Shown here: piece by piece, positions 24,717 through 31,540 of the stretch | How positions within the stretch are numbered: position 1 is the stretch's first letter | Layout of the letters: every line of letters starts with the position of its first letter | NCBI GenBank assembly: GCA_023511725.1 | Contig: JAIMAY010000008.1 | Coordinates: forward strand, 1 to 64,000 | DNA from: Alicyclobacillus sp. | Lineage (GTDB): Bacteria; Bacillota; Bacilli; Alicyclobacillales; Alicyclobacillaceae | DNA: 64,000 nucleotides | Direction: 5' to 3' | Translations under genes and position numbers: made by a program | The notes under the pieces: model-generated | The model's input: only the letters and a program-made list of their open reading frames with translations | Databases searched by the model: none | Told to the model about the DNA's origin: nothing

Positions 24717-24943
24717 CGCGGTCGTCCCTCCCATCCACGCGGCCTCTTGTGTCGCGCACCGACGGCTTGCACTTGGCCGCGGTGGGTCGTGCATCAACCC
24801 GAGTATGACGAAGGCCGGCCGAATTCGTCAATGATGCGGGCGACCGTTCACGCGTGCAAACCCCGCAGCTTCGCCGAACCTCGCAGCGACGTGAGCAAGC
24901 GGCGCGGGTCGACCGCACACGCACGCGCCGGTAACAACACGTC
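24717..24943. other. Non-coding gap between selW-like gene and mbfA-like gene
   Basis: From 24717 to 25057 I see no gene with a ribosome site. The stretch holds the leader of the MbfA-like gene and the hairpin at 24944-24979 annotated separately. Open frames here on both strands are antisense shadows or lack start signals. Confidence 0.5.
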
Positions 24944-24979
24944 GGGCGATCCCGCCCCTGGCGCGAGGCGGGATCGCCC
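24944..24979 (-). terminator. Long GC hairpin downstream of the SelW-like gene
   Basis: GGGCGATCCCGCC, a 10-base loop, and GGCGGGATCGCCC form a perfect 13-bp stem. On the minus strand it follows the selW-like gene by 78 bases and precedes TGTTGTT, so it probably terminates that transcript. It also insulates the downstream iron transporter gene. Confidence 0.55.
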
Positions 24980-25057
24980 GTATGGCCGGACCGGGTGACC
25001 GGCGCTCGCGGCGTATGCGCCCGCTTTGGCGGACGCCGGCCCGGCCGCGCAGCCCGG

Positions 25058-25309
25058 TCAGCCCAGCTTGCGCTCGACTTCCTGTGCGATTTCGCCTTCC
25101 TCCGGGAAACGGCCGAGCGCCTTCTTGGAGAAGACCAGCTCCTCCCCGACGCTCACCTCAAACACACCGCCGCTGGAAGGCACCAGTTTAAACTCGGAGA
25201 TCTTGGGATGGAACTTCGACAGCACTTCTTCCGCCACCCGGGCGGCTCTTGGCAAGTAGCCTCAAGACGTACAGTACTCGATGCGAACGGGCACCTTCGT
25301 CTCGGCCAT
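25058..25309 (-). CDS. SelW/Rdx-family selenoprotein with in-frame UGA (Sec at residue 16)
   Basis: The gene is read from ATG 25309 through TGA at 25264-25262 to the stop at 25058, giving 83 residues. Before the TGA stands METKVPVRIEYCTS-like sequence (MAETKVPVRIEYCTS); after it GYLPRAARVAEEVLSKF. The TGA occupies the second redox position of the family's CxxU/CxxC motif, giving CTSU. Downstream LVPSSGGVFEV and LVFSKKALGRFPE are SelT/SelW/SelH (Rdx) thioredoxin-fold motifs. An excellent AAGGAGG lies eight bases before the ATG, so translation starts upstream of the TGA. Standard annotation would truncate it to begin after the TGA. Rdx proteins are thought to act on glutathione or other thiols. 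Needs selA, selB, selC and selD elsewhere. Confidence 0.85.
25231..25245 (-). promoter_or_regulatory. Candidate bacterial SECIS hairpin
   Basis: On the mRNA strand CCGCC, loop CGGGU, GGCGG forms a small stem-loop inside the coding region. The stem begins 17 nt after the UGA and the loop about 22 nt after it, within the distance used by bacterial SECIS elements, and the loop is G-rich near its start. This fits recognition by SelB but is too short to prove it. Confidence 0.5.
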
Positions 25310-25417
25310 GCTGCAGACCTCCTTCAGGCTGAGCCCGGTATTGGATGCGCACCGCGTACGGCGGCACGTCCCACGCCTACAGTGTACGCCGGCGGAGCGC
25401 GGGATGCCAAACTGCCG

Positions 25418-30651: not shown

Positions 30652-30897
30652 CGCTGCGAGCCTCCTTTTACCTCATGCGCGCCGGTTTTCACGGGCTTCA
30701 GCGCGTCGTTCAGGTGCGCCTGCATGCCGCGACAACTCGCAGCTTCCACCCCTCTCCATCATATCGAAATTGTCCAGCAGCATGTTTGAATAGAAATTGG
30801 AAGAGAAATGGGAAAGCACCACGCGGGTGACCCGTCCAGTCGCCGGCCTTCCCGCTGGCATACACTGGTGCATCCCGAAGTGGGAGGTGGCGGAAAC

Positions 30898-31407
30898 GTG
30901 ACACAGGACAAGCGTCAGCGCGCGCGCAGGCATAGCGCCACGAAGCCGGGGCGAGGCGGGGCACGCGCAGGGCTCCAGGCACCCGGCGGCGGGCGCCGCC
31001 CCGCGGATATTCGACTCGCAGCGATGCGCCGATGGGCGGCGGCGGATGCGTCGATTCAATTGCTGCCGGGGCATCGGGCGGGATCGGAGAAAGCGGAGCC
31101 TTGCTTCCTGCCACTGCTGCTTCTGCTCGGCCTGTGGGGAGCAGGTCGCGCTGGGCGGCGACCGGATCCCCCGGCGGCCGGCATGGTTCCCGGTGGACTC
31201 GGCGGACCAGGCGCGCCAGGGCTCGGTGGGCTCGGAGGCTGGGGACCGGGCTCCGGGCTGTTTGGCGGTGCTCCGGCGTGGGGCGCCGGCCCCATGGCAG
31301 CCCCGGGTGGAGGATGGTACGGCTCGGGCGGCTGGGCCCGCATCCCGCGCGGTCCAGGCGCATGGGGCGGACTGGGCGGCGGTATGGGCTTCCCCCTCTG
31401 GTTCTGA
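30898..31407 (+). CDS. Glycine-rich protein with one membrane segment
   Basis: A 169-residue product from GTG 30898, with GGGAGG ten bases upstream. The N-terminus is strongly basic, followed by one hydrophobic stretch (FLPLLLLLGLWGAG) at about 100-113 and a Gly/Pro/Trp-rich tail ending WGGLGGGMGFPLWF. No known family; similar tails occur in spore-surface or secreted proteins of Bacillota, which is only an analogy. CATACACT at 30859 resembles a sigma-E -10 box but lacks a matching -35. Antisense open frames overlap it, so coding status is moderate. Confidence 0.5.
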   Translation: MTQDKRQRARRHSATKPGRGGARAGLQAPGGGRRPADIRLAAMRRWAAADASIQLLPGHRAGSEKAEPCFLPLLLLLGLWGAGRAGRRPDPPAAGMVPGGLGGPGAPGLGGLGGWGPGSGLFGGAPAWGAGPMAAPGGGWYGSGGWARIPRGPGAWGGLGGGMGFPLWF

Positions 31408-31540
31408 GAAGGATGCTCATCGAGCATGGTGTCGGGCGAGACGTGGCGGTCGGCGGGTGAACCCGGGATCGCCACGTCCTCGTTGCAGGGGTTGTTGGGA
31501 CAGCTTCGCACGAAGGGCAGGATGATGGGCGCGCTCATAT

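Follow-up and report, generated by a model that had tools for sequence, protein, structure and literature searches.

The SelT/W/H family has an established redox role. A bacterial selenoprotein family of SelW-like proteins was reported from the Sargasso Sea survey (PMC1088965) and also from sequenced genomes, where very few Cys homologues were found in Sec-containing organisms (PMC1794560). The early selenoprotein count for the Bacillales was small, comprising three families with three proteins (PMC1794560). SelW genes were overlooked in earlier genome annotation (PMC4607533). A text search of the literature for selenocysteine together with Alicyclobacillus gave nothing useful.

The stretch of Alicyclobacillus sp. 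DNA analyzed here (64,000 nt, hereafter the window) carries a gene which almost certainly encodes a SelW-like selenoprotein of the Rdx family, with selenocysteine predicted to be inserted at UGA codon 16 by means of SelB and a hairpin, so that a CxxU redox centre would result (Table 1). With the bacterial SelW-like selenoproteins (PF10262, NF041051, TIGR02174) it shares the CxxU motif, the size and the fold family, as well as a bSECIS element just 3' of the UGA and the co-occurrence with the Sec machinery. No essential difference was found; the window gene has CTSU-GY, whereas many homologues have CxxU-NY. The gene is therefore an ordinary one, belonging to a long-described family which is common in its bacterial class.

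Table 1. Features of the selW-like locus; positions refer to the window.
Feature	Position	Strand	Remarks
Promoter-like site TTGGCA-18-TACACT	25381..25410	minus	weak, consensus only (9/12 matches); alone no evidence of function
Ribosome-binding site AAGGAGG	25318..25324	minus	8-nt spacer to ATG; based on the sequence
Start codon ATG	25309-25307	minus
selW-like gene	25058..25309	minus	83 codons; Sec predicted at residue 16; final stop TGA 25060-25058
In-frame UGA, predicted selenocysteine codon (CTS-U)	25262..25264	minus	codon 16; TGA also in G010, G013 and G021
bSECIS hairpin CCGCC-CGGGU-GGCGG	25231..25245	minus	17-31 nt after UGA; fits the model of PMC13188914
Terminator-like hairpin, 16 pairs, poor T tail	24943..24980	minus	3' of the selW-like gene; weak (1 found vs 0.6 expected)

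If the in-frame TGA is read as U, the gene yields an 83-residue protein (MAETKVPVRIEYCTSUGYLPRAARVAEEVLSKFHPKISEFKLVPSSGGVFEVSVGEELVFSKKALGRFPEEGEIAQEVERKLG) with the motif MAETKVPVRIEYCTS-U-GYLPRAARVAEEVL... around the UGA. The UGA takes the fourth position of C-T-S-U, which is the second redox residue of the CxxC/CxxU motif. The read-through protein is recognized by the models Rdx of Pfam (9e-26, 90.3 bits; cut-off 22.6) and SelTWH of NCBIfam (100.4 bits; cut-off 88), and the Rdx match spans about residues 8-79, on both sides of the UGA. The initial annotation had described an ATG with a perfect AAGGAGG upstream of an in-frame TGA, the position of this TGA at the second redox residue and SelW/Rdx homology on both sides of it, and all three observations were confirmed. 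A single Rdx gene was found in the genome. The solved Rdx structures 2fa8, 2obk and 2p0g and mammalian SelW (2npb) are sequence relatives of the protein (E 1.6e-15 to 0.002), but more distant ones. No relative turned up in a scan of viral contigs. From the membership in the SelT/W/H family, a thioredoxin-like fold and a redox role can be assumed for the product, which would probably be a small oxidoreductase of the thiol/selenol type serving in redox defence.

Bacterial SECIS elements are modelled as an upper stem of 4-16 bp with a loop of 3-9 nt, a G within the first two positions of this loop and a distance of 16-37 nt between UGA and loop (PMC13188914). The selW hairpin has a 5-bp stem, the 5-nt loop CGGGU with G at the second position, and 21 nt between UGA and loop. 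Among 30 distinct Bacilli genes with TGA, all 30 form the full stem, compared to 4.2 expected for the same peptides with random synonymous codons, and all 30 have a guanine within the first two loop positions. Across these homologues 150 of 150 stem pair cells are standard pairs; in 30 cells both sides differ, and these changes affect three of the five stem pairs. Of the three pairs that vary, two (18-30 and 21-27) link third codon positions on both sides. The observed covariation score was reached by none of 500 shuffles; since the compared genes are related, the shuffle counts are not to be read as probabilities. Sliding the partner strand of the hairpin destroyed the pairing, and RNAalifold recovered the same helix unaided. 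Three Bacilli Cys homologues were examined as well, and they keep 0, 2 or 3 of the five stem pairs, so none has the full stem. Calculated for the window sequence alone, the minimum free energy 3' of the UGA did not differ significantly from that of synonymous recodings of this peptide, since in so G+C-rich a stretch the recoded versions fold well, too. The argument for the hairpin is therefore a comparative one, based on covariation.

The initial annotation had tied its reading to selABCD genes in the complete genome, and the machinery was found over the respective cut-offs in the assembly to which the window belongs (2.66 Mb, 97.7% complete). A tRNA-Sec with the anticodon UCA is located on contig C46 (83281-83373; 64.6 bits, threshold 47), which also carries selA (565.6 bits), while selB lies on C50 (362.3 bits) and selD on C63 (400 bits), all three over the curated cut-offs. 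Rfam and tRNA scans of the 64,000-nt window itself gave no match, the Sec machinery being located on other contigs. SelB, loaded with Sec-tRNA-Sec, would bind the hairpin 3' of the UGA and deliver selenocysteine at codon 16, which would complete the CxxU redox centre.

Alternatively, a suppressor tRNA or a general recoding could lead to Cys or Trp at the UGA, or the UGA could be read through without selenium. The few homologues with Cys at the UGA position would fit such a decoding. However, the selW-like gene itself ends with TGA as its stop, the tRNA-Sec(UCA) found together with selA, selB and selD is canonical, and the full hairpin is missing from the three Cys homologues examined. Decoding as another residue or without selenium is therefore very improbable, and selenocysteine is very probably the residue inserted at the UGA.

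The selD gene of this genome (L017, C63:31396-32319, minus strand) is itself a predicted selenoprotein gene, with an in-frame TGA at GUGCK. An 8-bp hairpin, GATAGGTC-CGGGA-GACCTATC, is located 3' of this UGA, and its loop CGGGA is near-identical to the loop CGGGU of selW. Both formate dehydrogenase alpha genes found over the cut-off in the genome are free of TGA. For this reason a tiny selenoproteome appears conceivable, and the genome may, though this is rather doubtful, keep its Sec machinery for SelW and SelD only. SelW would then be the sole selenoprotein apart from the Sec-making enzyme itself.

In the same bacterial family, TGA occurs at the same codon in three genomes, which represent two other genera (g11 with G010 and G021, g14 with G013). 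The homologues in these genomes show 66-74% protein identity to the window protein, and all three genomes contain selA and tRNA-Sec. As in the window, each of the three has a toprim gene upstream of the selW homologue, and G010 and G021 also have a VIT/ferritin-like gene nearby. Two further relatives carry Cys forms of Rdx, which are similar to the selW-like gene in homology (50-59% identity) and are each located near a VIT/ferritin-like gene, but have TGC where the window gene has TGA and do not form the full bSECIS stem. One of these genomes (G012) has neither selA nor a tRNA-Sec over the threshold, whereas the other (G015) has kept both. Small frames rich in Gly and Pro, in which an N-terminal motif of the type CFLPLLLLLG(L/G)WG recurs, were also observed, in the window at 30808-31525 (plus strand) and in the relatives as L049, L050, L052 and L053. 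They lie about 1.5 kb or less from selW in the relatives and about 6 kb from it in the window.

A sample of 399 Bacilli genomes, including the one analyzed here, contained an Rdx gene in 55 genomes, and in 53 of these 55 an Rdx gene contains TGA. This agrees with the few Cys homologues described before (PMC1794560). The class name Bacilli was taken over from the initial annotation, and the homologues are in line with it. The gene selA was found in 85 of the 399 genomes. All 53 genomes with TGA-containing Rdx have selA, compared to 32 of the remaining 346 Bacilli (Fisher p 5.6e-44). The Sec form is thus nearly always the form of SelW found in Bacilli, and it tracks the Sec machinery strictly. 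The view of the initial annotation that selenoproteins are rare in Bacilli does not hold against these counts; it may go back to the small early count for the Bacillales. The usual occurrence of the Sec form in Bacilli and its strict link to the Sec machinery extend the earlier descriptions modestly.

It could also be assumed that selW is dead or of the Cys type here, with a TGA that arose by nonsense mutation or by misreading of TGC or TGG, and the family does include Cys members. Three independent assemblies of the family show TGA at this codon, so that neither chance nor a sequencing error explains it, and the recurrence of TGA-containing Rdx in the Bacilli sample points in the same direction. 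In addition, changes relative to the homologues fall mainly on third codon positions, both before and after the UGA, the hairpin covaries, and the link with selA is strict. A pseudogene or sequencing error is thus extremely improbable. Translation limited to the TTG-started fragment 25255-25058 (65 aa), which is the only frame that mechanical ORF calling lists at the locus, can be practically dismissed, as this fragment lacks the redox motif as well as the N-terminal portion of the match to the family, conservation extends to the codons 5' of the UGA and the AAGGAGG is that of the upstream ATG. The expected truncation by standard annotation did occur, but with an ORF caller it amounts to 18 codons instead of the 16 initially given. 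The local annotation is hereby corrected from a truncated frame to a full selenoprotein gene.

The selenoprotein reading of the initial annotation is strongly supported by the machinery, the covarying bSECIS element, the strict co-occurrence with selA and the UGA kept in other genera. Gene, family, machinery, hairpin covariation and UGA conservation were computed here, and from them we infer the insertion of selenocysteine in the cells.

In 13 other Bacilli genomes among the 53 with TGA-containing Rdx, selW is located directly 5' of selA on the same strand, at a distance of 49-689 bases (G132, G144, G232, G268, G288, G328, G348, G355, G363, G367, G371, G375 and G409), and this arrangement suggests that both genes form one operon there. 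In the genome analyzed here, selW and selA are located on different contigs. Related TGA-containing genes were also found in metagenome-assembled genomes of Chloroflexi, Planctomycetota, Gemmatimonadetes and other phyla. A second Rdx gene with two in-frame TGA codons occurs in G192 (C30:823-1038) and in G211 (C12:8288-8503); these genes possibly encode two Sec residues, or one Sec in combination with decay. Sec-type and Cys-type Rdx genes are carried together by G055 (C1:352220-352432 and C1:1322427-1322642).
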